DNA from: Cupriavidus nantongensis
Lineage (GTDB): Bacteria > Pseudomonadota > Gammaproteobacteria > Burkholderiales > Burkholderiaceae
Assembly: GCF_001598055.1 (NCBI RefSeq)
Contig: NZ_CP014845.1
Location: forward strand, 1,426,001-1,490,000
Direction: 5' to 3'
DNA length: 64,000 nt
Shown here: one piece after another, positions 2,027-19,941 of the stretch
How positions within the stretch are numbered: the stretch's first letter is position 1
How the letters are laid out: every line of letters begins with the position of its first letter
Made by a program: the position numbers and the translations under genes
The notes under the pieces: generated by a model
Databases searched by the model: none
Seen by the model: the letters and a program-made list of their open reading frames with translations, nothing else
Told to the model about the DNA's origin: nothing

Positions 2027-2480
2027 GTCAGTGGCAGGTCTGGGTGGTTCGGGAATGCGGGCGAAGCGTGCCCGCGCGGCAGGCAAGTTACTGCGGGCAG
2101 CCCGGTGAGGCTGGCGGGGCGCACGCGCCGGCAGCGCCGATGTAGGTGGCGCGGGCCGGGCGCAGCGCCCTGGGGTCGTCCGTGGTGGACGGACGCTACC
2201 TTAACCGCGCTTCATGACAGTTGCGTGAACAACAAAGGGCGCGATGCGCGCTGCGGGGTGTCTGGCCGGTGGCTGGCCGGGTATCGAGGCGCGGTACCGC
2301 GGCTGGGAGCGGGATCCCCACCAGCGACCCGGAGCCGGGGCGGAGCAGGGACAGGAGTGGAACTTGATCAGACAGGCCCAGGCTGGCTTAGGCCGCGCCA
2401 GCTGGGCCTGCGACAGGGCGATTGCTGCGCGCGCTCGCCTATCGCGTGGAACGTGGAAGGTTTTGCTTGAAGGTGCCAGG
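2027..2480. other. Intergenic stretch upstream of the SurE-like gene; possible Pho half-site
   Basis: No supported gene lies here; a 96-codon minus-strand frame at 2201-2491 has no recognisable content. Reading the minus strand, CTGTCATGAAG occurs at 2210-2220, which matches one half of a Pho box (CTGTCAT plus spacer). The adjoining half is poor, so PhoB control is only a suggestion. The stretch also holds the 3' flank of the CsgG-like gene. Confidence 0.35.
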
Positions 2481-3305
2481 TTACGAGCCAACCTTGAGCT
2501 GGCCGCCGCGGCCCAGCCCGCCCTTCACTTCCTGGGCCTTGTAGTTGCGCAGCGAGACCACCATGTTGTTGTAGGCGTCCATGAATGCCGCCACGGTGGC
2601 CTTGCCTTCAGGCGTGCGCGAGAAACCGCCCAGCCCGCCGGCCGCACCGCCGCCCAGCGCGCCGAAGGCGGCACCGATATTGGTTGCCGTGGAGTTGCCT
2701 TCCGAGATGGACAGCTGCACGCCGGACCGGATGTCGAACATGGTCAGGGTTACGACCGATGCCTTGCTTTGCATGGCGCCGCCGACCAGTGCGCCGACCG
2801 CACCGAACAGACCGCCCACACCGGCGGCCAACTGGCCCGTGGAGTCGTTGTCGATGATGATTGCCGGCTCCATGTAGTAGTCGGCCGCGACGCGCTGTCC
2901 CTTCTGCTGGCGCGAACCGGCGCGGAACTCGCCGGAATTGCGCTGCTTGTCGGTAATGTTCGAAAGCTTGCTTTCGGTGCGGTTGTTGCCGACCGAGGTG
3001 ATCACGAAGCAGTTCGACTGCTGCACCGCCAGGCGGATCAGTGGCTCGATGGTAGTGACTTTGGTGGCTGCGCCGAAGCTCGCATACCATTCCTTGCCCC
3101 GGCCATCATCGACGGCCAGCGTGCCCAGCGGCTTGTCGCAGCGCTCCAGCGTCGGATTGGCATTCACGCTGGTGGCCCCGCCCGCCGCGCCGGTGGCGGC
3201 CGTCGGTGCCGTGCCGGTGCTGATGATGCCGCCCCCGCTGGCGCAGCCAGCCAGGATCAGGGATGTGGCCAGGCCGGCCACGCGCAGAGAAGTCTTGTTC
3301 GGCAT
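2481..3305 (-). CDS. CsgG/HfaB-family lipoprotein
   Basis: The leader MPNKTSLRVAGLATSLILAGCASGGG is a lipoprotein signal with lipobox LAGC. After a low-complexity Thr/Ala linker come CsgG-like elements: PLIRLAVQQSNCFVI, ADYYMEPAIIIDND, a Gly-rich hydrophobic hairpin (AAGVGGLFGAVGALVGG) and VVTLTMFDIRSG. CsgG relatives form or assist outer-membrane export channels (curli, holdfast), and many family members are uncharacterised envelope lipoproteins. At 274 residues the length fits. AGGAACG precedes the ATG. It follows the Sel1 lipoprotein gene by 54 bases on the same strand, so the two are probably an operon. No curlin subunit gene is nearby, so curli export is not implied. Confidence 0.8.
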   Translation of the reverse strand: MPNKTSLRVAGLATSLILAGCASGGGIISTGTAPTAATGAAGGATSVNANPTLERCDKPLGTLAVDDGRGKEWYASFGAATKVTTIEPLIRLAVQQSNCFVITSVGNNRTESKLSNITDKQRNSGEFRAGSRQQKGQRVAADYYMEPAIIIDNDSTGQLAAGVGGLFGAVGALVGGAMQSKASVVTLTMFDIRSGVQLSISEGNSTATNIGAAFGALGGGAAGGLGGFSRTPEGKATVAAFMDAYNNMVVSLRNYKAQEVKGGLGRGGQLKVGS

Positions 3306-3359
3306 GAAAACGCGTTCCTGTTGACGGAAGTAATTAGAAAAATCGGAGGATGGGCGGGC

Positions 3360-3956
3360 TTAGCGGGGCTGCCAGCCGGCGCGGTCCCATACCCAGTAGT
3401 ACGGATAGCTGCTGTACCAGGCCAGCCAGGATTTGCGGTAGGCTTCGCGCACCTGGTACAGGCTCTGCTCGTCCTTCTTGGCTGCTTGCGCTTGCGGCAG
3501 CAGGTCCCGTGCCTCCTTGCTGCCTTTCGCTGCAGCGCGCGTCAGCCACGCCTCGGCTTCAGCAGGGTCCGAGCCCATTTCCTCAAAGCCCATCAGGTAG
3601 ATTCGCCCAAGCGCCAGCTGGGCCTGCATATGGCCGTTGTCGCCGGCCTTGCGCAACCATTGGAGGGCCTGATAGCTGTTGCGCTCCACGCCATCGCCAC
3701 GCAGCAGGCGCAGGCCGAGGTCGTAGGCCGCGTTCGCATCGCGCTCAGCCACCGCTGCCAGCGCCTGCATACGGTGGTCGGCATCCGCTGGTGCAGCCTG
3801 CCCTGTGGCGACACGGCGATCCTGCTCGGTGCAGGTGTTGCCTTGGCACAGGCGTACGGTTTGCGACTGGGGGGACAACTGGTCTGCTGGCGATTGCGCG
3901 GCGCATGCTGCAAGGCCAACAACCATCGAAAGCATCAGAAACGTAATATTTCTCAT
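3360..3956 (-). CDS. Sel1-repeat lipoprotein
   Basis: With the start at 3956 the product is MRNITFLMLSMVVGLAACAAQ..., a lipoprotein leader with lipobox LAAC. An upstream Met seven codons earlier lacks a ribosome site, whereas CAGGAC sits 10 bases before this ATG. Residues 75-150 contain two Sel1/TPR-like repeats (AAYDLGLRLLRGDGVERNSYQALQ... and AQLALGRIYLMGFEEMGSDP...). The C-terminus is aromatic (WLAWYSSYPYYWVWDRAGW). Sel1 proteins mediate protein-protein contacts in the envelope. It is first in the presumed operon with the CsgG-like lipoprotein, so a joint role is likely but unproven. Confidence 0.8.
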   Translation of the reverse strand: MRNITFLMLSMVVGLAACAAQSPADQLSPQSQTVRLCQGNTCTEQDRRVATGQAAPADADHRMQALAAVAERDANAAYDLGLRLLRGDGVERNSYQALQWLRKAGDNGHMQAQLALGRIYLMGFEEMGSDPAEAEAWLTRAAAKGSKEARDLLPQAQAAKKDEQSLYQVREAYRKSWLAWYSSYPYYWVWDRAGWQPR

Positions 3957-4229
3957 AAACGGAATGTCCTGATACATCTACATTTTCTGGAACCTACAAT
4001 ATTCTATTGTAACAAAATGTACGCAGTCTAGCCCCGCTGCACTAATGCCGCATAAATGCCGCACTAATGCCGCTCTCCTGGAAAGATGCCTTGCCGGACT
4101 CCGACGCAAGACCTGAATTTCCGGCCAGTACGGGATTGGCAGGAACTTGCTACATTGCTGACTACTGGCGAAAACAGCCCCAGGCAGCTGCCCCGCTCAC
4201 CGAAAACCGACAGACAAGGGAGACATCGA

Positions 4230-5366
4230 ATGCACACCGCACTTCAACTTCGTTCGCAAATCAAGAGCAGCGGTGAACTCGAGCTATCGCTAGAGAGCAT
4301 CGACACGCCGCATCCTGGCCCGGATGAAGTGCTCATCCGCATTGAAGCCTCTCCTCTCAACCCGTCCGATCTCGGCCTGCTGTTCGGTGCGGCTGACATG
4401 AGCACGGCCAGGGCCAGCGGCACGGCCGAGCGCCCCATCGTCACCGCGCGCGTTCCGGAAGCCGCGATGCGCAGCATGGCGGGCCGCCTGGATGTGTCCA
4501 TGCCGGTTGGCAATGAGGGCGCGGGCGTGGTCGTCGATGCAGGCTCGTCCCCTGCGGCGCAAGCCTTGATGGGCAAGACCGTGGCTGCCATCGGCGGCGC
4601 GATGTACTCGCAGTACCGCTGCATTCCCGCAGACCAGTGCCTGGTCCTGCCCGAAGGCGCTACGCCTGCTGACGGTGCGTCGTCATTCGTCAACCCGCTC
4701 ACCGCACTGGGCATGGTCGAGACCATGCGGCGCGAAGGACATAGCGCCCTGGTGCACACCGCCGCGGCCTCCAACCTGGGCCAGATGCTCAATCAGATCT
4801 GTCTCAAGGATGGCATCAAGCTGGTGAACATCGTGCGCAAGCAGGAGCAGGCGGACCTGCTCAAGGCACAAGGTGCGGTCCACGTCTGCAACTCCGCGTC
4901 GCCCACGTTCATGCAGGAGCTCACCGAGGCACTCGTCGCCACTGGCGCAACGATCGCGTTCGACGCCACGGGCGGCGGCAAGCTCGCCGGCCAGATCCTC
5001 ACCTGCATGGAAGCGGCCTTGAACAAGACGGCCCGCGAATACAGCCGCTATGGCTCGACCACCCATAAGCAGGTCTACCTCTACGGCGGCCTGGACACAA
5101 GCCCGACCGAGTTCAACCGCAACTTCGGCATGGCGTGGGGCATGGGCGGCTGGCTGCTATTCCCGTTCCTGCAGAAGATCGGGCGCGAGCGGGCCAACGC
5201 GCTGAAGCAACGCGTGGTGGCGGAGCTGAAGACCACCTTTGCCAGCCACTACTCGAAAGAGATCTCGCTGGCCGAGGTGCTGGACCTGGATGTGATCGCC
5301 GTCTACAACAAGCGCGCGACGGGGGAGAAGTACCTGATCAACCCGAACAAGGGCCTGGCCAGGTAA
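4230..5366 (+). CDS. MDR-family zinc-type alcohol dehydrogenase-like oxidoreductase
   Basis: The protein is 378 residues. The N-terminal GroES-like part reads PDEVLIRIEASPLNPSDLGLL and VGNEGAGVVVDAG. The cofactor domain carries ALVHTAAASNLGQMLNQICL, where the quinone-reductase signature normally lies, and FDATGGGKLAGQIL. It resembles quinone oxidoreductase/enoyl reductase members of the medium-chain reductase superfamily, and the substrate cannot be told. The start at 4230 is supported by AAGGGAGA 6-13 bases upstream; the frame is open further upstream but without a ribosome site. It stands alone between the envelope genes and the accessory island. Confidence 0.85.
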   Translation: MHTALQLRSQIKSSGELELSLESIDTPHPGPDEVLIRIEASPLNPSDLGLLFGAADMSTARASGTAERPIVTARVPEAAMRSMAGRLDVSMPVGNEGAGVVVDAGSSPAAQALMGKTVAAIGGAMYSQYRCIPADQCLVLPEGATPADGASSFVNPLTALGMVETMRREGHSALVHTAAASNLGQMLNQICLKDGIKLVNIVRKQEQADLLKAQGAVHVCNSASPTFMQELTEALVATGATIAFDATGGGKLAGQILTCMEAALNKTAREYSRYGSTTHKQVYLYGGLDTSPTEFNRNFGMAWGMGGWLLFPFLQKIGRERANALKQRVVAELKTTFASHYSKEISLAEVLDLDVIAVYNKRATGEKYLINPNKGLAR

Positions 5367-5367
5367 A

Positions 5368-5700
5368 TCACCCGGGGCGCCTGCGCGCCCACCGTGTCAA
5401 GAACCAGCCGCTGCGCAACAGCCAGCGGCGCGGTGCGGCTGGCAATGCGTGAGCGCCTTCCAGTTCCGCGGCGGTGTGGAAGCTCGCTCGGGTGCTGCCC
5501 TGGCAGTCGTCGCGCACCAGCACGCGCAGGGGCAAGTCCAGCGCAACGCTGGGTGCCGCGAGCATCAACGGCGTTCCCCGCTTGGCGTTGCCAGGGATCA
5601 GGACCTGCGTCGGCGGCATCTGGCTGCTGCCAGTGATGCCGTGGCCGTCTCTGACCGACCCGGTGCAGGCGTTCGAGCATCGTCGGCCTATGTCTGCTGT
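5368..5700 (-). pseudogene. Decayed DUF302-domain gene with frameshifts
   Basis: On the minus strand, 5619 down to about 5430 encodes MPPTQVLIPGNAKRGTPLM followed by LAAPSVALDLPLRVLVRDD, the hallmark central part of DUF302 proteins (usually PPTxVLIFGNPKAGTPLM, then APxxALDLPLKxLV). The upstream part appears in two other frames (TMLERLHRV, then VRDGHGITG), with about ten residues missing before the conserved block. After HALPA the family-like C-terminus (SRTAPLAVAQRLVLDTVG) continues in another frame. At least two frameshifts and one deletion are needed to explain this. The gene is dead or nearly so and marks the edge of the island. Confidence 0.6.
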
Positions 5701-5841
5701 GCAGCGATTGCGGTCCTACGACGGTTATGGGCGAGCGGCCGGAATGCGTCACCAACCGGCCATTGATCCAGCACCTGACCTTTGGTGGTGGGGCACCGGT
5801 TAAAGGATGCTCCGCCAGCGCAGCACTCAGAGCAGTTGCAC

Positions 5842-8798
5842 CTACAGTACGACGCCATCTTTGGCAGACCATTGGGAAAAGGTCCGATGGATGTGTGCGT
5901 GAGTTTGAAAGACTCGCTGTCTGCCCTCATTAGGGAGCAAGTCGTACCCATCCATCTTCTTCAGCCAGTCACGTTCGCCCCAGTTGCACCAGACGAGGAC
6001 CTGGCGCGTCTCCTTCAGATACCGGCGAAGCAGATCCGCCCGGACGTAGAGCAGCTTGTGCTTGTCGCCAAAATAGCCTTCGCCTGCTTGTCTGTAGAGC
6101 GTTGCGGGATGGCCGCTTGCATCGAAGAAGTCGATTTCGCGGTTGCTGCAGGAGAGGCCAAGACGCTGGATCAGGCTTGGCGCCGGTATGTGAAAACCCG
6201 AGAAGGTGTTCTGCGCGGAGTGGTAGGACTCCCAGCCAAACTGGATGGATGGCAGCTCAAGTCGGACACCCGGAATATGGCGGGTGGTGGGGACGTCGAA
6301 TTCAATGACGGAAGCTTCTTCGTCGCCCGTTGTAGTGCCTGACATCGAGGCGATCTTGATGGTGAGAGACCGCTTCTCACCGGCGCTGTAGTCACGCTCG
6401 TACTCATCGAACGCCTCCGCAATCTGCCGGCGGTATAGGCCATTGCGCTTGAGAAGATGCCGCGCAAAGTTGTGGCGGTGGCTTGGCTCTCCTGCGAACA
6501 GATAGTGCTCGTCGGCTCCCTCTGGGATCTTCTGGTTACCCGGGTAGTCGATGGACAGGAACCTCGACCGGAGCGTGTCCACATCCTTCTTGGCCACAAA
6601 CACTCCGCGCAGGAAGGCAAAGAGTTCACGGTCGTGCGAGCTGTCAGCTCCTTGGACAAAGCCTTCGACGAGCACCCATTCACCCCGATGCCCATTGATC
6701 TCGGGGACCACCAAAAGCGAGTGCCAGTTTGGCGTGAACCCGCCTGCGACCCAGTCCTCCGTGGTCGCGGCGGGCGAACCGAAGAGGTCCGGCAAGGGAG
6801 GCGTCCAATCGGGTGGCGCCTTGGGGAAAGTGGGATCTACACCGCAATCGGAAGTCCGGCTACCCTGACGCCAATCCGGGAGCTTCCGGTTCGCATCGCG
6901 CTCTCCCCACATCTCGAAGTACGCGATCCAGGAATACTTCTTACCGTAGCGGTCAACTTTATGTTCGTTGCGAGCGTTCCAAGAGTTCCGCCCAATCTCC
7001 GACTCGACGTGCTCGAACCGCTTGTCCCGATACCCCAGGTCGAACATGCGCCGCTCGATCTTTGACCGTACCCGCACGTAGTCTGGCTTCGTATAGTCAT
7101 AGTTTGCCCTGTTGGGAATCAGTCGACCGATTGTGTAGTTGCCGAAGTCCATTTGGATGGCGTGGCCAATCGCATCCTTGACTGCGTCATCAGGCGTTCC
7201 ATTGCTGGTGAATGGCGACGGGGTATTCGGGAATGGTCGGCTGAGGTAGCGGCCTGACGTCTTCGGCAGCTTGACGCACCTTGCTCGCCGCGCGACCTCG
7301 ATAATCCCAAGCGCGTAATCCCGCATGAGCGTGTGGTGCGTCGCGTGGCGCGCACGAGGCGCGAACATCTGAAGGTAGAGCTTCTTGGCCAGGTCCCCAA
7401 GGAGCGGCCTGAACGAAGCTGCCTTTTTGGAATCGACCAGCGACAGGGCCGTCCCGTAGGCGGCCGCAAGTACTCGCTCAGGGAGATACGGATCGTTAAA
7501 TTCTAGGCATGCCACCGCGTGCGAGAACAGTAAGTCCGGATGTTGCTCTCCGATCAGAACGAGTGCCTTGGTTGCAAGGTCGCGATCACTGCGAACAACT
7601 GTGGGCAGGACCAGGGAGAACAACACCACGAGCTCGGCGGCCACAGCCCTAGTCATGTTCACTGTGTCGAGCTTCTCCGCCCAGGTCAGCAGCCTATGAA
7701 TGGTCGGTGAGGCATACCTTCGTCGCAGGTATTCGGACCAGCACAGGTCGCGGTCAGCCATTGGATAACGCGACAGAAACTTGTACAGCCGCTTGGCATG
7801 GTAGGGATGGCTCGGTTTCGTCGCGACGGCCGCCAACGCATCCACGACGCGCTCCCAGGCGCGGGAACTTGCGCCCAAGTATTGATTGATGACCTTCTGC
7901 GTCCCCTCGGTGAACGCGGTCGGACTTCTCCAGAACAGGCCATCGACAAACGGCTCGAAATAGGCGTTAAGATCTTGTGCTTCCCGTGGCAGCGAGAAAA
8001 AGAGCTCGCGTTGGCTGGTAGGAAGCCTGCTCCCAACGCGCTCGGGGAACTCCGTGATCAATGCTTGGGCCCATCCCGGCTCCGCATAGTGGCCGAAGTT
8101 CCGATCGGTTAGCCGAAAGACCTTCGCGAGCGGAGAGGTGGCTGCGAAGCTGTCCTTGATGGCAGCAGGCGACGACGGATCCAGGTATGCCTTTAGCAGG
8201 TGCCTGGCGATCAAATGGTCGCTGAACCGCTGGTAAGGCAATCGGTACACCACCCGGGACTTGTGCTGTCCGTCCCTCGTGGAATACCAGATGGCGTCCT
8301 CTTCGATTAGCCCGTTCGTACGCATCGCCTCCAGAAGCTGGCGCCGTTGAGCGGGTCGTAACGAAGGCCTGCTCGCGGCGACGATGCGGTCTGCCTCTGA
8401 CGGGAGGACATAACCGCGGAGTTTCGCTGCCATGCAGGGTGCGAAACCGGCAATCCGCTTGTCGACGAACTTGTCGTCACCCTTCAGCAAGATCCAGCAT
8501 CCCTTGTCCTGCAGCCCGAACTCGTGTTCGATTTGTTGCCCAACGCGATTGACGAATGATTCCAACACGAACGTCATGCCGCGCTGTCCGGAGGCGATGC
8601 CTGCGAAGCCCTTTGCCAGCTTTTTGCCCGACAGGCTCTGCAGCGACTGGCAGATGAGTTTCAAGGTGAGAGGGCGCGAAAACTCGCGGTCCAACAGCGG
8701 AACCTCCGGCAACGGCAGCTGATAGTACTGAAAGAAGGCGGCCTGCGCATCGAACTCCTGGTCGTCGAAGCCGTAATGCTGAAGGCGATGAAATTTCT
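5842..8798 (-). pseudogene. C-terminal fragment of a large STAND-type NTPase, cut off by the IS5-type element
   Basis: This is the downstream 985 codons of a gene that began at 11067. It picks up in frame at EKFHRLQHYGFDDQEF right next to the IS end. The region has a long helical part (residues about 330-800 of the reconstructed protein), then a conserved block near residue 925 with YDYTKPDYVRV and RYGKKYSWIAYFE. I associate that block with large defence-type P-loop NTPases of the Avs/STAND kind. A final mixed segment of about 300 residues has no domain I recognise. Without the ATPase half it should not function. The apparent longer frame on this strand, reaching 9840, is antisense to the transposase and is not real coding. 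Confidence 0.75.
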
Positions 8799-8821
8799 CT
8801 AGCAGGCCGCTGAAATACCTC
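8799..8821. repeat. Left end of IS5-type element: CTAG target duplication and inverted repeat
   Basis: CTAG at 8799-8802 is the target duplication and fits the YTAR target preference of IS5 relatives. The inverted repeat begins at 8803 with CAGGCCGCTGAAATAC. It matches the opposite end in 13 of the first 16 positions. Confidence 0.8.
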
Positions 8822-10136
8822 CGGTGGACGTCAGCGCGACAACTGGCTGAAGCGTTGATTTGAGGAACCCATCCAACTCCACTTTCATGCGCGGCGCAGA
8901 TACCTTCACGGAAAGTTTGTTCACTATGCGGAGGCTGGATGATTTCGTGCCGAAGTCCCACCCGCTGCGCTCGATCCGCGCCATGGCCAACCAGGCGCTG
9001 GTAAAGATGGACCGGTTGTTCGCACAGATGTACGAGGACGATATCAAGGGTGGCCAGCCCAGCATCGCGCCGGAGAAGTTGCTGCGGGCCATGCTGCTGC
9101 AGGTGCTCTACAGCGTTCGCTCCGAACGCCAACTCATGGAGCAGACGCAGTACAACCTGCTGTTTCGCTGGTTCATCGGGCTGTCGATGGACGACACCGT
9201 TTGGGTGCCCACGGTCTTCACCAAGAACCGCGAGCGGCTGATCAAGCATGATGCGGTGATCCAGTTTTTCAACGAGGTGCTGGCCATCGCGCAGAAGAAG
9301 AACTGGCTGTCGGGCGAGCACTTCAGCGTGGACGGCACGCTGATTCAGGCGTGGGCAGGCCACAAGAGCTTCGTGCGCAAGGACGGCGGCGACGACAAGG
9401 ACGACAACGACGGCGCCAACTTCAAAGGTCGCACGCGCAGCAACGAGACGCACGAGTCCAAGACCGATCCCGATGCCAAGCTGTACCGCAAGGGCAAAAC
9501 TGCGAGTGAACTTCGCTATATGGGTCATACCCTGAGCGACAACCGTCACGGCCTGGTGGTGAGCGCCATGGTGACCAATGCGGACGGACATGCTGAGCGC
9601 GAGGCCGCGAAGGTGATGCTCAACGATGCCCGACAGGTGACGGACGACCCGAACACCGAAATCACGGTGGGTGCAGACAAGGGCTACGACGCGCAAGAGT
9701 TCATTCAAGCCTGCCTGGAACTGAAGGTGACGCCCCACGTGGCACAGAACACCTCGGGGCGCCGCTCGGCCGTTCCTGATGCCATTGCTTGCAGCGCCGG
9801 GTATGCCGTTTCGCAGCAAAAGCGCAAGCTGATCGAACAAGGCTTCGGATGGGTCAAGACTGTCGGGCGCATGCGCCAGGTGATGGTGCGTGGACTGAAG
9901 CGAGTCGACCAGATGTTCGTGCTGAGCATGGCCGCCTACAACCTCGTGCGCATGCGCTCACTGGGACAAATCCGTCCGCAGTTGCAGTAATCGCGGTAAT
10001 GAGGCCGGAATCGGGCGCCAAACCGCCGAAAAAATCGATGTAGGGACGTCCCGCTTCCAGATTGTGAAAAATCGCAAGCCTACTGCCTTGCAGGGGGAAG
10101 CCTCGCCTCTTGTACGGGGAGTACTTCAGCAACCTG
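8803..10136 (+). mobile_element. IS5-family insertion sequence, 1,334 bp, complete
   Basis: The element is bounded by inverted repeats (CAGGCCGCTGAAATAC on the left; the complement of the right end reads CAGGTTGCTGAAGTAC) and flanked by a direct CTAG at 8799-8802 and 10137-10140. It carries one intact transposase gene. It sits inside a minus-strand NTPase gene, and deleting the element plus one CTAG restores that frame exactly, which independently confirms both boundaries. The intact ends and transposase suggest a fairly recent insertion that could still be mobile. Confidence 0.88.
8887..9990 (+). CDS. IS5-family transposase (DDE)
   Basis: The 367-residue product starts MRGADTFTESLFTMRRLDDF, typical for this IS5 branch. 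The DUF772-like N-terminal domain contains KLLRAMLLQVLYSVRSERQL and NLLFRWFIGL. The catalytic core shows DGTLIQAWAGHKS (first Asp), GADKGYDAQEF (second Asp) and EQGFGWVKTVGRMRQ (Glu region with the Y-R-E-K type signature). A TTG nine codons upstream keeps the frame open, but the family usually begins at MRG. The gene lies antisense to the NTPase gene it interrupts. Confidence 0.92.
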   Translation: MRGADTFTESLFTMRRLDDFVPKSHPLRSIRAMANQALVKMDRLFAQMYEDDIKGGQPSIAPEKLLRAMLLQVLYSVRSERQLMEQTQYNLLFRWFIGLSMDDTVWVPTVFTKNRERLIKHDAVIQFFNEVLAIAQKKNWLSGEHFSVDGTLIQAWAGHKSFVRKDGGDDKDDNDGANFKGRTRSNETHESKTDPDAKLYRKGKTASELRYMGHTLSDNRHGLVVSAMVTNADGHAEREAAKVMLNDARQVTDDPNTEITVGADKGYDAQEFIQACLELKVTPHVAQNTSGRRSAVPDAIACSAGYAVSQQKRKLIEQGFGWVKTVGRMRQVMVRGLKRVDQMFVLSMAAYNLVRMRSLGQIRPQLQ

Positions 10137-10140
10137 CTAG
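10118..10140. repeat. Right end of IS5-type element: inverted repeat and CTAG duplication
   Basis: GTACTTCAGCAACCTG at 10121-10136 is the right inverted repeat, read outward. It is followed by the second CTAG copy at 10137-10140. Confidence 0.8.
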
Positions 10141-11067
10141 GTCCGACTTCTCAATGGCTATGGCCTCAAATGGAGTCCGGCATGTCACGACCACCCCGAT
10201 GTTGGGGTGGTCGGCGACGAGTGAGATCAGGGTACTGATCGCCTGTCGCCACTCGCGCCGACGTCCCTCATTGACGCCGTCGACGACGAAAACAGTGCGG
10301 CCCCTTGCCCCTTGTCCGGCACCCGAAAGCTCGGCGAACTTGTCCTCGACCGAAGTCGCCTCGCCGAGGCGCGCGCAAATATCCGCAAGCACGTCGCCTT
10401 CGAAGTTCTTCGCCAGCACCAAGACTGTGGGAGCTTCACGGGCAAGGCGCTCACTGGTGACATCGCACAGCAGGTGGGTCTTGCCCGTGCCCCATTCACC
10501 ACCGATGAGCAGGAGCGGATCAGAGAGCAGCTTGAACGACGGGCTGCCCGCGTATTCCGCCTCATCCCGAACAATGCGCAGGCAGCGGCCAATCGCATCC
10601 AAGTTCGCGCGCACGCTGTTGTGCGCGGAAGAGTAGCTCCCGTCGTCCGGGGCAAGCTTGGCTTCCTCGGCCCGCCAATGGGCGATATCCTGCATCAAGC
10701 GGGCGTCGATCTCAGACAGCTGGTCGGCCCATTCATAGCCCGCAGTGGCATCGCGCGAACGCAGGCGATCCATCATCGCCGGAAGCGATGCGCCAGCGGC
10801 GTCAACCAAATGCTCGATCTCCGCGGGTCTTTGGCTATGATGCTTGGCGCGCTTCCAGGCTTCGGCGAACTCGTCGAGGACCGACCGGAAGCGCGTTTGC
10901 GCAGCATCGCCACATGCAACGTTGTCGATGGCGGTAGACAACGCGGCAATCCGAAGATTAGGCGCGCTCGGATCGATGCCGGGCGTATACCTTTGGCCCG
11001 CTTGACGTATTTGATCCCTGCAAAGATTGACCAGTACCGCTGAAAGTGATGGCGGATCAGAGGGCAT
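10138..11067 (-). pseudogene. N-terminal fragment of the STAND-type NTPase (P-loop half)
   Basis: The first 310 codons of the interrupted gene. Translation would now run three codons into the IS and stop at 10126. The N-terminal 150 residues are helical and include GQRYTPGIDPS. The P-loop is GGEWGTGKTHLL (about 189-200), the Walker B-like segment is TVFVVDGVNEG (about 258-268), and VVVTCRTP follows as a sensor-type Arg strand. These together indicate a STAND/NACHT-like ATPase. The start at 11067 is fixed by a TGA two codons upstream, and no strong ribosome site is visible. Joined to the fragment ending at 5842, the intact protein would be 1,295 residues. No nuclease, protease or TIR effector is visible at this end. 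Confidence 0.75.
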
Positions 11068-11587
11068 AGTTCACTGTGTAGTAGCTAGAAGGTATCGCAA
11101 TCCAGGAGGAGGCCTGGTCGAACGCCCCTCTACTTCGCCGCTAGCTTGTCTGGGATACGGGACTTGCCAGTGGGGCGGAAGGGCGACGCGTGGACGCCGG
11201 GTCTTCGAATCATTTGTCTCGAGGCTAGTTTCGCGGGCATAGCGGGCGCTCAGGGTGCTGGCTCGTAGGACTGCTTGCAGCCTGAAACGGTCAAGCTGCC
11301 CGGCCAGGCTCGAAGGGCTGTCCGGTATAGGCAGAAGATTGAAGTTCACCAACGGCTGCTTTGCCACTGCTATTGCGTGACGGCCAGGATGGGGAAATGT
11401 ATGGTGGGGCCGTCTGGATGATCCCACTTGGAGAATCACCTGTCGGGTGGCGCTTGTGCGTAGCAACGGTGTTCGATGCCATTCGCGGGCCGGAACCTCT
11501 CGTGGGTGTGATGTCTGTAAAGAACACCACATCATTAAGCGATGTTGTCCATGGTGGGCGACTTGGCCGTGCGTGACGTTCAAGGTT
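11068..11587. other. 520-base gap between HNH gene and STAND gene, no supported gene
   Basis: Several short frames exist on both strands, but none has a ribosome site plus recognisable content. One minus-strand frame contains FFTDITPTRGSG, faintly like a phytanoyl-dioxygenase strand, too little to call. The stretch probably carries the promoter of the STAND gene. No retron-type reverse transcriptase fits in this space. Confidence 0.4.
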
Positions 11588-12322
11588 TTAATTTTCAGTG
11601 CTTGCTTTGGCAGCCTCTCGACGACGCCGGAGCACCTTTATGATTGCGTCCTTCACATCATTTGCTCGATGCTGGTCTAGCACAGAGATCGCGCCGACAA
11701 GCATGGACAGCGCGCCTCCCCGCGCCTCTAGCCGCTCCGCGAGCGCACGCCGCTCGATCTGTCCAACATCGTTCAGCTTGAGACTACGAATTGTCCGTCT
11801 TCCCTCCGGAGACTGGCCTTCGAAAACCCAACCGCGCACGAGCAAAATGTGCTGTGAATAATTGTGAAAGTGCGGATTGACCCAGCTGAAATTGGCCGGA
11901 GCCACCGGGAACGCATCGCCGGACGTGAGAGCAATGCTGAGCACAGGACATCGAGCCGGCGCGGGCCCCACGAAGGTTCTGGTCATGAACCTGTATCTGC
12001 GGTTCCAAGACAAGAAATATGCGTTCTTCCGGATATTGCAGGTCCCACAAGAAAGCGCAAGGTTCCTGATCTCGTATGCAAATTGAGGAAATGTCGCCTT
12101 GTCGACAAAATGCTCAAGATGAGTCGCGTAGTCGTCGTACAGGTGACGTCTGCAAAAGCAGCAGCGTCCCAACTGCGCCGTCCTGAGCGCAATCTTCAGC
12201 CCGGCGCGGAATTCGATCGCGACTTTCGCCCTGGATTCCCATGTAAGGCCGACCAACGCCGCAGCTGTGGTCCCGGCAGGATAGCCAAGGGTCGGAACGA
12301 TTCTGTCAAATCCGATGTTCAC
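11588..12322 (-). CDS. HNH-type endonuclease, Septu PtuB-like
   Basis: The 244-residue protein carries an HNH zinc fold. CCFCRRH at 54-60 gives the first metal-binding pair, THLEHFVDK at 67-75 the catalytic His region, the conserved Asn is N87, and LSCGTCNIRKN at 90-100 gives the second Cys pair and the CN motif. The GTG start at 12322 overlaps the TGA of the upstream ATPase frame as GTGA, so the two are translationally coupled. An overlapping ATPase plus HNH pair is the architecture of Septu (PtuA/PtuB), in which PtuB is the nuclease. Retron-associated PtuAB is the alternative, but no reverse transcriptase is visible. The nuclease frame itself is intact. Confidence 0.75.
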   Translation of the reverse strand: MNIGFDRIVPTLGYPAGTTAAALVGLTWESRAKVAIEFRAGLKIALRTAQLGRCCFCRRHLYDDYATHLEHFVDKATFPQFAYEIRNLALSCGTCNIRKNAYFLSWNRRYRFMTRTFVGPAPARCPVLSIALTSGDAFPVAPANFSWVNPHFHNYSQHILLVRGWVFEGQSPEGRRTIRSLKLNDVGQIERRALAERLEARGGALSMLVGAISVLDQHRANDVKDAIIKVLRRRREAAKASTEN

Positions 12323-13686
12323 CGCTGAGGTCCTTCGTCTAGGAGCGCCTCAATGACATCGGCCATTGGATCGCTTGGAGTGAGTGCGTCACGGATCGAC
12401 CTAAGCTTCGGCATCAATCCTTGGAACTCCGCATTCTCGAAGTCGCCTCGCTCGATCAAAGACACGGCTCGCTGGACCGTGTCCACGACGAGCCTGTTCC
12501 TGCTGGAGCCAACGCCGAATTGGGAAAGAAGCAACTCGTCAGACGATGCACCGTAGGACGCGACACTGGTCTGCGGCGCATCGCTACTCATGTCAACAAT
12601 AGAACTGCCCTCCGGAGCGGCCCCCACGATGAGTGGCTAGTGTGTGCATACGATGAGATGCCCCTCCGTCTTCATCGCGCCTGCACACACGTCGAATACC
12701 GTCGCCATCAGCTCCCGCTGCCATTGCGGGTGGAGGTTGTTCTCGGGCTCGTCTATCAGCAGGACAGCCTTGTCCTCGAGCCCGAAGCCAATTGCCAGGA
12801 TGCTGGAGAACATGTGATACTCACCTGAGCTTAATTCCATTGCTGAAAAGCCAGAATCGTCCCTTGCCGATTTAACAGTGACATCCACTAGTCGCACGAG
12901 GTCCGTGAGCAATCCCAGTCGTAGCACGTTGGGCGCGATGCCTTGGCAGTGCGCCCCCGTCTCATTAAGCTCGACCGCAAGGCGCCGCTTCCCGTTGTTC
13001 ACAAAGAATTGCAGCGCCAAAAACTCGTCGTAGCCGAATTCCTGTAGCAGCCACTGCGCCGTGGCGTAGGAAATGTGCGGGCGATCTGCGGCTGTCTTGC
13101 GAGTGCTGTCGGACTCAGGTCGTATGCCTTGCACGATCCCAAGCAAGTCACCCATCGGGCCTCGTGCCTTCTTTGACACACCACGCTGGGCCTCCAAGAT
13201 GTACTTTACGGATGGTCGAATTCCCGCGTGCCGATGTGCAACGCTAAAGAATTCCCATCTGCAACGCTCTGCCCTAGCAGGGTCGAGCGCAAAAGCCAGC
13301 ATGGTCTCCAGCGGTGCCTTCTTGCTAAGCAGGTTGCTGATGACTCTTTGACCAACGTACGTGTAATTTGGGACGTCAAACGGACTGCGAGTTCCTCCCG
13401 GCAGTTCCTTCTGTGGAAACCGGTCAGCCACCGAACCTGATACACAAAGCACCTGATCCCGACCCGGATTCCGTACAGACGACGCCTCTTCTCGAGCGTT
13501 GCGTTCCACCACCGCCAGCCCAGACACGATCCCCTTCAGCAGCGTGCTCTTGTGTGAGCCGTTACGACCTGTAATGAAGGTTGTCGCAAAGTTGGTTGAC
13601 CTAGGTCGATCTGACTCAAGCAACAAGTCAACCGACCTGACCTGATTGTCCCAAGTATGGAATGCCGCAGAGTGAATAACCGCCAT
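12319..13686 (-). pseudogene. Septu PtuA-like AAA15/ABC-type ATPase with an in-frame amber codon
   Basis: Reading 455 codons from 13686 gives a complete AAA15-type ATPase. Walker A-like FITGRNGSHKSTLL is at 37-50, the ABC signature LSSGEYHMF near 283, Walker B VLLIDEPENNLHPQWQ near 304, and HLIVCTH at 343-349. The next codon, 12637-12639, is TAG. The same frame then continues PLIVGAAPEGSS to a proper stop at 12319, which overlaps the HNH start. THxP should be THSP, so one TCG to TAG change accounts for it. The product ends at 349 residues and loses 106. GGGAGG precedes the ATG. The Walker A has His where Gly is usual (GSHKS). The C-terminal part could be re-initiated at the GTG at 12627, but not as a working ATPase. 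Confidence 0.8.
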
Positions 13687-13708
13687 GCTACCCCGCCTCC
13701 CAATTCTA

Positions 13709-13746
13709 AGTATGCCACGCGCACATTAGTATGCCACGTGCACATA
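13709..13746. repeat. Two tandem 19-base repeats upstream of the Septu-like operon
   Basis: AGTATGCCACGCGCACATT (13709-13727) and AGTATGCCACGTGCACATA (13728-13746) differ at two positions. They end 22 bases before the ATPase start codon. On the coding strand each unit ends in CATACT, a plausible -10 element, so the array may be the operator or a doubled promoter of the operon. Confidence 0.6.
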
Positions 13747-14649
13747 AGCGTGAGCGTCTTTGACGCTCAGCCCTTGGCGGTTTCGATCGCCAGGGCAGCA
13801 ACTTTGGAATACCCCATCATCCAAGGCTCTATCAGTCCTGCTTGTACGAGATCACTTCCGTGGCAAGCCGGTGACCGTGTGAGGAGGTGCTGGTCACCCG
13901 GCAGCAAAGTTGAACGGGCTTTCGGACATCGACTTGAGCAAGTCGAAGGACAGACCCCGCATGCGGAACAGACATTCAATTGCAAATGCCAGCTTTCCGC
14001 TCATGGCCGATAGGCGCCCCCCACCAGCCAAGACTCCCTCCGCCCCAACCTTAGAGCAGGCGCCGACGATACATGGCTTCAGCAACGTTCCGGACAACAT
14101 TGCGCTCGCGCTCTAACCTGCATACCTGACCAGTATGTCAAAATTCGTTTCTGAATGATCTGATCCATTGCCGCTCCGGCGTGGGTGTTCGAGAATGGTT
14201 TGTCGCCAATCCAATGGCGATCAGGTTTAGCAGCCTGCATACCACACACGGACAGCGCCGCACGAGCGGCGCTGTCCGTCGCGCCATCGAACGTCCACAC
14301 CTGCGGGCGGGCCTTGGCAGGGGAGCCTCAGGGCTCGCCGGTTGAGTGGTGCCGGTCTGCTGATATGACTCCCCGTGTCAATCGAGATTGGTTGGTTCAG
14401 TTTCACTTTCCCATATTGGTCCCAATTTCCTGAGGGCGACGTAGCAGTAAGTCTCGACGGTGGATCACGCTGATATCCGCGGGTTGGTTACCGCATTACA
14501 GAGGTCCGCCCAATGAGCCGGCCGCTATCTAACGTCGCAAGTCGGATGCAATCCGTTGCCTAGCAGACCCGCGGGTTGCTCGTGTGCCGGGCTACGCCGC
14601 CTTCAGGAAACTGGCCTCACAGTAGTGTCAGATAGGTTGATGGCCTAGG
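13747..14649. other. 900-base stretch without a supported gene
   Basis: Short frames are present on both strands but none is convincing. A minus-strand frame at 13894-14100 reads CSKVGAEGVLAGGG and SGKLAFAIE, faintly like the L-asparaginase II core, and may be a remnant. A strong hairpin lies at 14248-14279. The stretch from about 14560 to 14649 probably includes the right end of the IS110-type element, whose exact border cannot be read because this family lacks terminal inverted repeats. Confidence 0.4.
14248..14279. terminator. Strong 13-bp hairpin, possible terminator
   Basis: ACGGACAGCGCCG and its exact complement flank a six-base loop (CACGAG). There is no T-run on either side, so it may be a terminator-like structure or an element remnant rather than a classical intrinsic terminator. 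Confidence 0.45.
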
Positions 14650-15780
14650 TTACGCTTCCCGCGCTTCGTTCGGTACGGCAAGCGACATCGCGAGCTGGCT
14701 GATATCCCATATGAATCCGCTCAGTTCGCGGGCCACTGCGACCACCGCAATGTTCGGGTTCTTGCCGCGGGCGGCAAGTTTCCGATAGCGCCGGCACAGT
14801 CGAACCTGAGCGTCCCAAGAGCGGTCAACGATGGCCTTTGGGATGCCTTCGTGCCGGCGTTGGATCTGGGGACTCACGCGTGCGGGGTGCCGGTAGCTCC
14901 AGGCGGCTTCTATCAATAGCTTTCTTGCATAGCTATTGCCGTTCTTTGTGATGCTGCCCTGGCGCCGCTTTTCTCCCGATGAGTGTTCAGCGGGCGTCAC
15001 GCCGAGCCAGGCCATCAGTTGGCGCGGATGGGCAAAGCGTGAGAGATCGCCCAGCTCGGCGAGGATGCCTATCGCCGTAGTGAATTGCACGCCGCGCATG
15101 GTCTGCAAGCCCAATACGGCCGGGTAGAAGCGCCAGTTGACCACTGCTTCGCGCAAGGCCTCTTTGAGACGGCTGCACTGTGCGAGCCGATCCTCGATGG
15201 CACGTCGATATTCGTCAAAGGCAAGTTGTTGCCACACGGTGTCGAACACAAAGGCACTGATCCAGCGCCGGTGCGCCGGTCCCCAGTCGGCTCTGCCGGT
15301 GTAGCGAACACCGTGCGAGAGCAGAAAGGCCTTCAGCCTTTGTCGGGCGCGCTTCAGGTCGTCTTTGGCGCTGACCCACGCGCGTGACAAATCCCGGAAC
15401 GCTTCGTCTTCCACGCTGGGCACGTACACCGCCGAGAGATCGCCGGCGCGCAGCGATCGCACGAGCTTGACCGCATCGCGTCGATCGGTCTTGATGCGTT
15501 CACCAGGCTTTTTCGGGATCAACGACGGCGCACACACCATGCAGTCGAATCCCTTTTGTGTGAGCTCGCGGTAAAGACCATAGCCGCAAGGGCCTGCCTC
15601 GTAGACGATTCGGATGTGGCGCGCTTTGGACTGCAGGCGCTTGCACAAGCGGTCGGTATCAGCCTTCGATGTACCGATCTTGCCAAGCTGTTCCACCTCA
15701 GCCATGCCGAGTGCGTACGCGACCGTGATCGAGTCCTTATGGACGTCCAGACCGACATACAAAGTGATATCGTTTTCCAT
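14650..15780 (-). CDS. IS110-family transposase (DEDD recombinase)
   Basis: The 376-residue product starts [17 protein letters not shown]. The RuvC-like DEDD core is visible: D in GLDVHKD, E in [13 protein letters not shown], and D/D in [12 protein letters not shown]. The C-terminal Transposase_20 domain carries [34 protein letters not shown] and [16 protein letters not shown], with the catalytic Ser expected there. An earlier Met 15 codons upstream has no family support. The gene is intact. IS110-group elements act with a structured RNA encoded in the flank upstream of the gene, here above 15780. Confidence 0.92.
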
Positions 15781-15989
15781 GCTGGCCTCCGCGCTGGAAA
15801 TCGCCGGGTGTGGCACTGTCCACACCGTGCGGCTCTGGCAGTCATGCTAACCCGCGTTTGATTCCTCGCGGCGGGCCAGCCCTCCTTGCCCTTGCTCCAG
15901 GGGAGTCATACTGACTAACCCTGCCCTGTGCTCGCCCACCCGATTAGCAGCGGACGACGGGCCTCCACCCCTTTAGTTCGGAGGTCATT
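15781..15989 (-). ncRNA. Candidate IS110 left end and bridge RNA region
   Basis: In IS110-group elements the non-coding end upstream of the transposase encodes the bridge RNA that pairs with target and donor DNA. Here that end is the 150-200 bases above 15780, before the next gene's ribosome site at about 15979. A 7-bp hairpin (GGTGTGG, loop CACTGT, CCACACC) lies at 15807-15826. The exact RNA ends and guide loops are not resolved. Location is inferred from the family; only the hairpin is seen. Confidence 0.35.
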
Positions 15990-16316
15990 ATGCAAAGCAA
16001 CACCCCGGCTCCCCAAGAGCCCACCCTTTCCCAAAAAGCTCAACTGGCCGAGAACCTGGCCAAAGTGGACCGCGCCCAGGCCCGCCCCCACGCCAAAGCC
16101 GCTCCGCCCCCGCCCAGCAAAGCCGTCACCCTGGAGGAGCAAATCCTCGAGGCCACTAACGACATCCTGCGCGTCAGCGCCGGCCTTCAGTCCTTCCTGA
16201 CCTTGCTGGACCTGCAGAGCGACACCATCCCCCAAGGCATCGGCCTCCACGCCCTGCTTTTGCCGCTCAAGCAACAGCTTGACGAGAGCGCAGATCGCCT
16301 GCAGGCACTGGTCTGA
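15990..16316 (+). CDS. DUF1484-like small protein
   Basis: The product is 108 residues, preceded by CGGAGGTC six bases before the ATG. The N-terminal half is Pro/Ala-rich with a charged helix. The C-terminal half reads ILRVSAGLQSFLTLLDLQSD and HALLLPLKQQLDESADRL, the pattern I know from DUF1484 proteins of Ralstonia and Cupriavidus. No function is established. It has no signal peptide or membrane segment. It lies between the IS110 element and a bidirectional hairpin, facing dnaE2. Confidence 0.65.
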   Translation: MQSNTPAPQEPTLSQKAQLAENLAKVDRAQARPHAKAAPPPPSKAVTLEEQILEATNDILRVSAGLQSFLTLLDLQSDTIPQGIGLHALLLPLKQQLDESADRLQALV

Positions 16317-16364
16317 CCAGGGAGAGCCAGCTTACCCGCCCGACGGATGAGCAGCGCTGAAAAA

Positions 16365-16399
16365 CAAACGGCGCGAGCCAACTAGTCTCGCGCCGTTTG
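16365..16399. terminator. Bidirectional intrinsic terminator between converging genes
   Basis: A perfect 13-bp stem (CAAACGGCGCGAG / CTCGCGCCGTTTG) surrounds a nine-base loop at 16378-16386. It ends in AAA/TTT on the two flanks. It lies between the plus-strand DUF1484-like gene and the minus-strand dnaE2, and serves both. Confidence 0.75.
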
Positions 16400-16425
16400 C
16401 ATCTCCGTCATTGGCGCCGTGCGTC

Positions 16426-19400
16426 TCAATGAAAATCCCGGCTCCCCACCAGCAGCCGCCCCAGCATCGGGCTCAGGTCCACCAGTTCCTTGGCCACCAG
16501 GTGGCGCACGTCGCCCTGGCGCTGCCAGGTGCCGACCACGCCCAGCAGCGTGGCGCCCAGCACCTCCTTGCGCTGGCGCTCGACCAGGTCGGGCCACAGG
16601 ATCAGGTTGATGCTGCCGGTCTCGTCTTCGATGGTGGCGAAGATGGTGCCGCTGGCGGTGGACGGGCGCTGGCGCACGGTGACGATGCCGCAGGCGCGCA
16701 CGCGGCGGCCGTTGGCGCAGCGTTCGAGCTGGCTGGCGGTGACAAAGCGCATCGCCGCCAGCTTGTGCCGCAGCAGCGCCAGCGGGTGCGACTTGAGCGA
16801 CAACCCCAGGCTGGCATAGTCCGCGGTCACGTCTTCGCCGAGGCGCGGCGCGGGCAGCGCAAGCGCGGCTTCGGCTGGCGGCGCCTGGTACAGCAGGTCG
16901 CGGTGCGCGGCATGCGCGGCCGCGGCGCGGGCCTGCCAGCGGGCCTGGCGGCGGTTGCCGGCGAGCGGCGCGAGCGCGTCGGCGGCGGCCAGCACGTCGA
17001 TGTCGTGGCGGTCCAGGCCGGCGCGCAGCGCCAGGTCTTCGACGCTGTCGAAGGCACGCTGCGCGCGCGCGGCCTCGATGCGCAGCGCGGCGGCCTCGCG
17101 CATGCCCTTGACCCGGCCCAGGCCCAGGCGCACGCGCGGGTGCGGCGGCCGATCCTGCCGAGTGCTGAACGCATTGGCCGCATTGGCCACATTTGCCGCC
17201 TCGGACTCCGGCACCGGCTCCAGCGTGCTGTCCCAGCGGCTGATGGTCACATCCACCGGCAGCACCTGCACATCATGGCGGCGCGCGTCCTGCACCAGCT
17301 GCGAGGGTGAATAGAAACCCATCGGCTGGCTGTTCAGCAGCGCGCACAGGAAGGCCGCCGGATGGTGGCGCTTGAGCCATGAACTCACGTACACCAGCTT
17401 GGCAAAGCTGGCCGCATGGCTTTCGGGGAAGCCGTATTCGCCAAACCCCTCGATCTGCTTACAGATCGCCAGCGCGAAGGATTCCGGATAGCCCTTGCCG
17501 GTCAGCGCGCGCACCAGCGCGTCCTGGTGCTTGCGCAGGTCGCCGCGCCGCCGCCACGCCGCCATCGAGCGGCGCAACTGGTCCGCCTGCCCGGGCGAGA
17601 AACCCGCCGCGTCGATCGCCAGCTGCATCACCTGCTCCTGGAAGATCGGCACGCCCAGCGTGCGGCCCAGCACTTTCTCGATCACCTGGTTGAAGTAGAC
17701 CGGCGGCTTGCCCGTGCGGCGGAAAGCCTCGCGCCGCTTCAGGTACGGATGCACCATGCCGCCCTGGATCGGGCCGGGCCGTACGATCGCTACTTCCACC
17801 ACCAGGTCGTAGTATTCGCGCGGCTGCAGCCGCGGCAGCATCGATTGCTGTGCGCGCGACTCGATCTGGAACACGCCGATGGTGTCGGCCTTGCAGATCA
17901 TGTCGTAGGTCGGCTTGTCTTCCTTCGGAATATCCTCCATGCGCGCCGGCAGCCCCGCGCGCGCCGGGTCGATGCTGGGGTTGGGGATCATCTCCAGCGC
18001 GCGCCGGATCGCCGACAGCATGCCCAGCGCCAGCACATCGACCTTGAGCAGCCCCAGCGACTCCAGGTCGTCCTTGTCCCACTGGATCACGCTGCGGTCG
18101 GCCATGGCCGCGTTCTCGATCGGCACCAGCCGCGACAGCTTGTGGCGCGCGATCACGAAGCCGCCCACGTGCTGCGACAGGTGGCGCGGAAAGCCGCGCA
18201 GCTGCGCGGTCAGGCTGGCCCACTGCTGCACTGCCGGGGACTCGGGATCGAGCCCGTAGCGGGCGATCTTGTCGACAAAGCCCGGCCCGCCGTCCCACCA
18301 TGCCTGGCCCTTGACCACCTGCTCGACCACGCTGGCGTCGATGCCGAGCGCGCGGCCGACGTCGCGCAGGGCGCTGCGCGAACGGTAGGTGATCAGCGAC
18401 GCCGCCAGCGCGGCGCGATGGCGGCCGTATTTGTCGTAGATGTACTGGATCACCTCTTCGCGCCGCTGGTGCTCGAAATCCACGTCGATATCGGGCGGCT
18501 CATCGCGCTCGCGCGACAGGAAGCGGCCGAACAGCAGGTTGGCCTGCTCGGGGCTGACCTCGGTCACATACAGGCAGAAGCACACCAGCGAATTGGCGGC
18601 GGAGCCACGCCCCTGGCACAGGATGCCACGCGAGCGCGCAAAGCGCACGATGTCATGCACCGTGAGGAAGAATGGCTCGTAGTGCTTTTCCTCGATCAGC
18701 GCCAGCTCTTCGTCCAGCTGCTTGTCCCACTCCGGCTGCAGGCCGTTGGGAAAGCGCTCGCGCTTGCCACGCTCGACTTCCTTGCGCAGGTACGAGATCG
18801 GGGTCTCGCCGGGCGGCACCAGTTCCTCGGGGTACTCGTAGCGCAGCGTGCCCAGCGAGAAATCGCAGGTCTGGGCAATCTTCAGCGTCTGCGCCAGCGC
18901 CTCGCGCGGGTACAGGCGCGACAGCACCTGGCGCATGCGCAGGTGCTGCTCGGCATTGGGCGCCAGCGCCATGCCGCATTCGTGCAGCGGCTGGCCCAGC
19001 CGGATCGCGGTCAGCAAGTCGGACAGCGGCTTGCGCGAGCGCACATGCATGGTGACCGCGCCGGCCGCGGCCAGCGGCACGCCGGTCTGCGCCGATACCG
19101 CTTCCAGGCGCGCGCGGTGCAAGGCATCGGCATGGCCCTGCAGTTGCTCCAGCGCGATCCAGGCACGCTCGCCGAACACGGCGCGGCACCACTCGGCCTG
19201 CTCCCGCAGCCGTTCCGGCTCGGCGCAGTAGTCGGGCAGCAGCAGCGCCACGCAGCCGGGCATGCCGCGCAGGTGGGCGACGTCGCCGGCCGGCGCGGCA
19301 AGGTCTTCGGGATGCAGCCGGTAGCTGCCCTTCTGCGCGCGCCGGCGGCCCAGCGTGATCAGCTCGCTCAGGTTACCGAAACCCTCGCGGTGCTGCGCGA

Positions 19401-19941
19401 TCAGCACCAGCCGCAGCGGCGCCTGCTCCGGGCGAGCGGCCGCGGTCAGGCTGAAGCGGCTGCCGATCAGCAGCGAGAACGCATCGGCGGCGCGCGCCAG
19501 CGCCTGCAGCCGCTGGTGGCGGCTGGCGTGGAAGCCGGGATCGTCGTCGCCGCTGCCGAAGGCATCGCCGTCGTCGAGCAGCGGTTCATCGATGCCGTCA
19601 TCAGCGCCGTCATCGGCACCTTCATCCACACCCTCGGCGCCCCGTGCCGCGCTGCGCGCCACCGCGTCGTGCAGGCGCTTGCGCAGCGTCTCGATGGCAT
19701 CGTGCGCGCGCGCGGTGCCGGCCACCGAGCATTCATCGGTCAGCGCCAGCCCGCTGTAGCCCAGGCCGAAGGCGCGCTCGATCAGCTCGCCGGGGTGCGA
19801 GGCGCCGGTCAGGAAGGTGAAGTTGGAGATGCAGTGCAGCTCCACGTAATCCGGCAACGCCGGCAGCAAACCCGGCAACGAGGCGGACATCGAAGGAGGC
19901 AACGAAGGAGGCAACGAAGGAGGCAACGGCGGCGCGCTCAT
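16426..19941 (-). CDS. dnaE2: Error-prone DNA polymerase DnaE2
   Basis: This is a 1,171-residue C-family polymerase. The PHP domain starts at YVELHCISNFTFLTGASHPGE. Polymerase motifs include GRGSAANSLVCFCLYVTEV and PDIDVDFEHQRREEVIQYIYDKYG with its acidic residues, GVPIFQEQVMQLAIDAAG and FPESHAASFAKLVYVSSWLK. The C-terminal OB domain reads RVRACGIVTVRQRPSTASGTIFATIEDE. DnaE2 carries out damage-induced translesion synthesis with ImuA and ImuB. The start at 19941 overlaps the imuB stop as ATGA, and the frame open above it is imuB antisense-frame noise. The N-terminus holds a PPSL repeat encoded by a 12-base tandem array; M18 is an alternative start. Confidence 0.95.
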   Translation of the reverse strand: MSAPPLPPSLPPSLPPSMSASLPGLLPALPDYVELHCISNFTFLTGASHPGELIERAFGLGYSGLALTDECSVAGTARAHDAIETLRKRLHDAVARSAARGAEGVDEGADDGADDGIDEPLLDDGDAFGSGDDDPGFHASRHQRLQALARAADAFSLLIGSRFSLTAAARPEQAPLRLVLIAQHREGFGNLSELITLGRRRAQKGSYRLHPEDLAAPAGDVAHLRGMPGCVALLLPDYCAEPERLREQAEWCRAVFGERAWIALEQLQGHADALHRARLEAVSAQTGVPLAAAGAVTMHVRSRKPLSDLLTAIRLGQPLHECGMALAPNAEQHLRMRQVLSRLYPREALAQTLKIAQTCDFSLGTLRYEYPEELVPPGETPISYLRKEVERGKRERFPNGLQPEWDKQLDEELALIEEKHYEPFFLTVHDIVRFARSRGILCQGRGSAANSLVCFCLYVTEVSPEQANLLFGRFLSRERDEPPDIDVDFEHQRREEVIQYIYDKYGRHRAALAASLITYRSRSALRDVGRALGIDASVVEQVVKGQAWWDGGPGFVDKIARYGLDPESPAVQQWASLTAQLRGFPRHLSQHVGGFVIARHKLSRLVPIENAAMADRSVIQWDKDDLESLGLLKVDVLALGMLSAIRRALEMIPNPSIDPARAGLPARMEDIPKEDKPTYDMICKADTIGVFQIESRAQQSMLPRLQPREYYDLVVEVAIVRPGPIQGGMVHPYLKRREAFRRTGKPPVYFNQVIEKVLGRTLGVPIFQEQVMQLAIDAAGFSPGQADQLRRSMAAWRRRGDLRKHQDALVRALTGKGYPESFALAICKQIEGFGEYGFPESHAASFAKLVYVSSWLKRHHPAAFLCALLNSQPMGFYSPSQLVQDARRHDVQVLPVDVTISRWDSTLEPVPESEAANVANAANAFSTRQDRPPHPRVRLGLGRVKGMREAAALRIEAARAQRAFDSVEDLALRAGLDRHDIDVLAAADALAPLAGNRRQARWQARAAAAHAAHRDLLYQAPPAEAALALPAPRLGEDVTADYASLGLSLKSHPLALLRHKLAAMRFVTASQLERCANGRRVRACGIVTVRQRPSTASGTIFATIEDETGSINLILWPDLVERQRKEVLGATLLGVVGTWQRQGDVRHLVAKELVDLSPMLGRLLVGSRDFH
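19891..19926. repeat. Three perfect 12-base tandem repeats at the start of dnaE2
   Basis: CGAAGGAGGCAA is repeated at 19891-19902, 19903-19914 and 19915-19926. On the coding strand it encodes consecutive four-residue Pro-Pro-Ser-Leu units. Copy-number change would keep the frame and only alter linker length. Confidence 0.8.

Follow-up and report, generated by a model that had tools for sequence, protein, structure and literature searches.

An acquired Avs2-like STAND defence gene of Cupriavidus nantongensis split by an IS5-type element, and intact relatives in which no fused effector domain is detected

The locus considered here lies in a 64,000-nucleotide stretch of Cupriavidus nantongensis DNA (NZ_CP014845.1, positions 1,426,001 to 1,490,000; hereafter the window), which sits on contig C2, one of the three contigs of the 7.14 Mb genome we searched. 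In the plasmid collection, the records most similar to the DNA around the locus are Cupriavidus replicons. A single large gene on its minus strand, 5842-11067, is divided at a CTAG by an IS5-type insertion sequence (Table 1). An earlier note on this DNA had described the gene as a STAND-type defence nucleoside triphosphatase (NTPase) split by one IS5 insertion, and this description holds, with PADLOC Avs2 profiles matching both halves. The borders and length of the element and the duplicated CTAG that it had given were recovered in the sequence, as was the 1,295-residue frame that it expected excision to restore, the N-terminal piece (10141-11067) providing 309 codons and the C-terminal piece (5845-8802) 986. 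These extents of the halves apply to the reconstructed gene and need a small correction for the DNA as it stands: the N-terminal half is at present an open reading frame (ORF) of 313 residues (10126-11067) that stops four residues into the element, and the C-terminal half an ORF of 1,332 residues (5842-9840) that stays open far into the antisense strand of the element, with a TTG start. The latter might be called as a single long protein by a gene caller.

Table 1. Features of the split gene, the inserted element and the neighbouring Septu pair (window coordinates; pLDDT, predicted local distance difference test)
Feature	Position	Strand	Evidence
N-terminal half of Avs2-like STAND NTPase, 309 codons: helical region, Walker A, Walker B region	10141..11067	-	PADLOC Avs2 2.5e-41; motifs conserved in alignment A2 (19 rows); model pLDDT 83
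C-terminal half, 986 codons + stop: rest of STAND core, helical repeats, C-terminal module with YGKKYSWIAYFE block	5842..8802	-	PADLOC Avs2 6.3e-119; collinear with 23 relatives; model pLDDT 76
IS5-type insertion sequence	8803..10136	+	1,334 bp; at least 11 identical copies, inverted ends
IS5-family transposase, 376 residues	8860..9990	+	NF033581, 289 bits, cut-off 140
Target-site duplication CTAG, left copy	8799..8802		sequence
Target-site duplication CTAG, right copy	10137..10140		sequence
ptuB, Septu (HNH nuclease), open	11588..12322	-	PADLOC 1e-116; 44% identity to plasmid PtuB over nearly whole length
ptuA, same Septu system, in-frame stop at 12637-12639	12319..13686	-	both pieces match PDLC00308; collinear with uninterrupted 445-residue PtuA

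The gene is otherwise intact, as the earlier note had held. Neither half contains a stop or a frameshift, and the ratio of non-synonymous to synonymous substitution rates (dN/dS) between the window and a Burkholderia lata relative (L010), 0.13 for the C-terminal and 0.18 for the N-terminal half, is close to that between two intact relatives (L009 and L010; 0.11 and 0.16, respectively). Relatives were collected by a pattern-based scan of genome contigs, which gave at least 44 loci, at least 24 of them close (L009-L030, L051, L052) and at least 20 distant (L031-L050, an Avs2-like group called here the sister family); counts from such scans, including that of a viral collection, are lower bounds. 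With one locus from the viral collection (L085) and a fragment from a plasmid collection (L056), the close set, referred to below as the clade, comes to 26 loci. Collinearity of homologues across the junction had been named beforehand as the point on which the reading should stand or fall, and all 23 of the loci in which both halves are present run straight through, the halves being adjacent, in the same frame and free of the element. The gap between the two half alignments is 0 nt in 20 of these, 3 nt in two and 9 nt in one, and in the two relatives aligned at the junction the residues are Asp-Leu-Glu-Lys, codons that the window flanks also fit. Within the DNA examined, the N-terminal part was not found in L018, L052 and L056, and L012 has only N-terminal residues 186-309. 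In 19 of the 23 no stop interrupts the matched stretch; a single stop occurs in each of L021, L025 and L027, and L028 shows an internal deletion with a change of frame, all four being metagenome-assembled records in which these lesions are possibly errors.

Two members of the close set come from the plasmid and viral collections. The plasmid fragment, from Paraburkholderia largidicola (L056, 8079-12658), is 5'-truncated and holds C-terminal-half residues 299-986 in two pieces separated by annotated IS66-family genes. An intact member of 1,292 residues (L085, 5074-8952) lies on a viral-collection contig near a recombinase-like ORF (named by eye), and this setting suggests that a mobile element may carry the gene.

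The inserted element has the features of the IS5 family: a DDE transposase of that family, inverted ends and a 4-bp YTAR duplication. The inverted repeats are imperfect, 15 of the 20 outermost bases agreeing between the two ends (chance ~1e-5 by a simple binomial). At least 11 full-length copies, 100% identical, are present in the genome, a lower bound, as the search scored 40 of its 125 first-look candidates. Flanking DNA was examined for eight of these 11 copies, among them the one in the window, and all eight have a perfect YTAR duplication (CTAG in six, CTAA in one, TTAA in one). Because the copies are identical, we infer that the element multiplied recently in this genome. The insertion itself is an ordinary event, and the loss of an acquired defence gene to a mobile element is a common fate.

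Judged by its sequence, the gene is an Avs2-like STAND NTPase as distinct from a standard Avs2. The STAND core carries its Walker motifs, GxWGTGKTH and GxNEG being conserved in alignment A2 with Walker A beginning at residue 190 of the window protein, and it matches the Avs2 structure 9o4e (PDB) by sequence; this structure was not among the structural matches listed for the model of either half. Four of four intact relatives score 509-542 bits with the PADLOC Avs2 profiles.

The clade appears to be without the N-terminal effector domain of Avs2, none being detectable, an absence that the earlier note had missed. Its intact members enter the PADLOC Avs2 model PDLC02164 only at position 166-180 (4/4), whereas sister-family members enter it at position 2-3 (3/3). 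An RYxP-like motif stands at residue 26-33 of the clade proteins (19 of 19 rows); in the sister family the corresponding motif, recovered by pattern from 14 of 20 loci, is placed near position 183 of alignment A4, some 155 residues deeper, and is preceded by a domain carrying a QCKW motif (seen in 15 of 20 loci; the frames of the other five are short or incomplete). From the RYxP-like motif to Walker A the distance is 164 residues in the window protein against 151 in sister rows with both patterns. The QCKW domain resembles weakly the Avs4 N-terminus, a nuclease according to NCBIfam (one of the three sister proteins that were scanned, with E-values of 1.1e-4 and 8.4e-5), and comparison of the sister N-terminal alignment with the Avs4 chain 8dgf gave E 0.08. 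Upstream of the start used, the frames of 22 relatives stay open for at most 165 nt (for L012 and L021 the position taken does not correspond to a start codon), and therefore no fused domain is hidden there. As for the opposite end of the protein, the C-terminal module is common to the clade and the sister family, and for that reason it is more likely to be a sensor extension than a replacement effector. For the helical N-terminus, the structural matches, among them designed bundles, Avs4 and ClyA-like proteins, were set aside as too unspecific for use. No Avs2 clade without an effector appeared among the records listed by our literature searches, in which the original Avs2 papers were not read, and this negative extends no further than those searches.

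Records of the clade are labelled Pseudomonadota, Acidobacteria, Desulfobacteraceae or Desulfobulbaceae, and loci covering most of the C-terminal half are ~61-86% identical to it. None of 35 congeners has a close homologue, a distant one (~40%) being present in G009, and none of 398 other genomes of the order has a homologue at E<=1e-150; no same-species empty allele was found in either set. A conserved neighbouring effector was not found either: in an all-against-all comparison of ORFs from 24 loci no family occurred in more than four, and effectors elsewhere in the genomes were not looked for. The commonest neighbour family, in four loci, is a LysR-type regulator, with three further families in three loci each. 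One of these is a restriction-modification protein of 1,627-1,649 residues, two of its three members having type ISP domains; a member of another (in L016) is a type I restriction subunit. The restriction-modification protein lies downstream on the other strand in each case (L014, 10706-15589; L021, 13261-18210; L027, 10971-15887). Among 35 chosen neighbours scanned, each of the best 25 of 47 PADLOC and 25 of 36 Pfam families appeared in one neighbour only. Thus several relatives adjoin other defence genes (restriction-modification), with no constant partner.

In the window the split gene has a Septu pair upstream, an ATPase gene ptuA adjacent to an HNH gene ptuB, the former interrupted by a stop that the earlier note had also passed over. 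Septu as a dedicated partner does not hold as a general rule, as a tblastn search with ptuA, ptuB and ORF 11071-11583 as queries gave no hit to any of the three in the other loci compared. That ORF was also considered as an effector and dropped; neither Pfam nor PADLOC gives a match to it and NCBIfam a single row, at E 0.097, and it is probably not a gene. Both systems lie in a segment, ~5662 to 13996, that is absent in six of six congeners picked among those with matches near both flanks, and was therefore acquired. At the site of the segment ~865 bp are present in G075 and next to nothing in G014. In G070 and G061 window position ~2240 lies almost directly against 16421-16426, and G078 and G008 carry ~4.2-4.4 kb of other ORFs. 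By sequence, then, two defence systems, each broken, are found within one acquired segment, and the ptuA lesion is unrelated to the IS5 insertion.

The wider variable locus, ~2242-16426, adjoins a DNA polymerase III alpha-type gene (16426-20412), and congeners have different inserts or none. It also contains an IS110-type element at 14362-15914 (transposase 14650-15825), for which G014 and G008, with 14361 joined to 15915, provide a clean empty site. In three congeners a second copy of the polymerase gene 3' end (window 16426-16550), 114-125 bp long, stands left of a dehydrogenase gene (L080, 4116-4229, reverse complement; L081, 4061-4185; L082, 3931-4055); the window is without such a copy, which may mark a former insertion border.

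In the published accounts of its mode of action, Avs2 recognises a viral target with its C-terminal part, oligomerises with ATP and activates a toxic N-terminal effector (PMC12724215; likewise PMC12931631). In the explanation we favour, the acquired Avs2-like STAND defence gene was hit at a CTAG by an IS5-type element that had recently multiplied, and what remains of it is two fragments. With the ATPase motifs and the sensor on different fragments, the gene is very probably non-functional, that is, dead, in this strain. In the intact relatives, by homology, the C-terminal part would bind a phage protein and ATP binding would drive oligomerisation through the STAND core, and the killing step would perhaps most likely need a component supplied by another protein, because the clade has no detectable fused effector domain. 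Taken as a whole, this explanation, that is, a recent IS5 splitting of an acquired Avs2-like gene whose relatives are Avs-type sensors with an effector likely acting in trans, is in our judgement highly probable. Its further elaboration we offer only tentatively, as a possibility that we would not yet call probable: that the intact relatives belong to a rare clade that has been widely transferred, in which the fused killing domain was lost at its boundary while sensor and ATPase stayed under selection, the effector being either supplied in trans, perhaps in common with other defence systems, or the helical N-terminus itself.

Three results weigh against our explanation. The four intact relatives examined reach 436-467 bits with NCBIfam NF041813, short of its equivalog cut-off of 1,000 bits; the global Foldseek fit of the C-terminal-half model to Avs3 is poor, with a TM-score of 0.33 by query length and a root-mean-square deviation of 25; and hhalign, given the clade and sister N-terminal alignments, aligned only the NTPase part, so that it is the PADLOC alignments, together with the motif spacing, that lead us to read the clade N-terminus as a linker. 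The same failure to align the helical region with the sister family counts in favour of a rival reading, that this region is the effector itself, a new helical-bundle effector. Residues 41-173 are indeed predicted by the structure model, with high confidence, to be helical, and the N-terminal half is well conserved in alignment A2, yet we regard such an effector as unlikely.

Turning to the insertion, the earlier note had called it formally reversible, a term for which we obtained no support, as neither an empty allele nor an excision was seen. One could imagine that precise excision in some cells preserves a working copy in the population, in a manner resembling phase variation, since the stop-free halves, the perfect duplication and selection like that on intact relatives point to a young and single lesion. 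However, precise excision is not known to be a normal step in the transposition of such elements and is rare, the congeners and the other genomes of the order hold no close homologue at the thresholds given above, and the unrelated lesion in the adjacent ptuA suggests decay rather than switching; we think such a switch very improbable. Hardly to be credited at all is a two-part protein, in which both fragments would be made and act as a split receptor, or the C-terminal half would be translated from inside the element. Walker A and B are retained on the N-terminal fragment and the C-terminal half is open from the TTG within the element, but neither end of the relatives' proteins falls at the element borders, and the added N-terminal stretch would be antisense transposase sequence.

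The wider point of interest, beyond the ordinary insertion, is the clade that seems to have no fused effector. If active, this clade would show that a bacterial NLR-like sensor does not need such a fused domain to function, much as certain receptors of plants and animals operate with helpers.

Compared with known systems, the inserted element shows no important difference from IS5-type elements of Cupriavidus plasmids and chromids, with 87-90% DNA identity across its whole length in the listed records (H46-H48, H52-H54, H56). The neighbouring pair matches PADLOC PtuA and PtuB of Septu, but ptuA is broken by its stop and the pair is not linked to the Avs2-like gene in other loci. Among structures, Avs3 bound to phage terminase (PDB 8dgc) is the best neighbour of the C-terminal-half model, with sequence identity of only 12-14% and the poor global fit described above. 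To Avs2 (AVAST type 2; PDLC02164, NF041813, PDB 9o4e) the STAND core and the repeats that follow align over most of their length, whereas the last ~425 residues of the clade protein are unmatched in 9o4e, the scores stay below the equivalog cut-off and no domain precedes the helical region. The sister family shares the C-terminal half with the clade at ~30-37% identity, an invariant KVDRYGKKY included, and differs from it in having the additional N-terminal domain with the QCKW motif.
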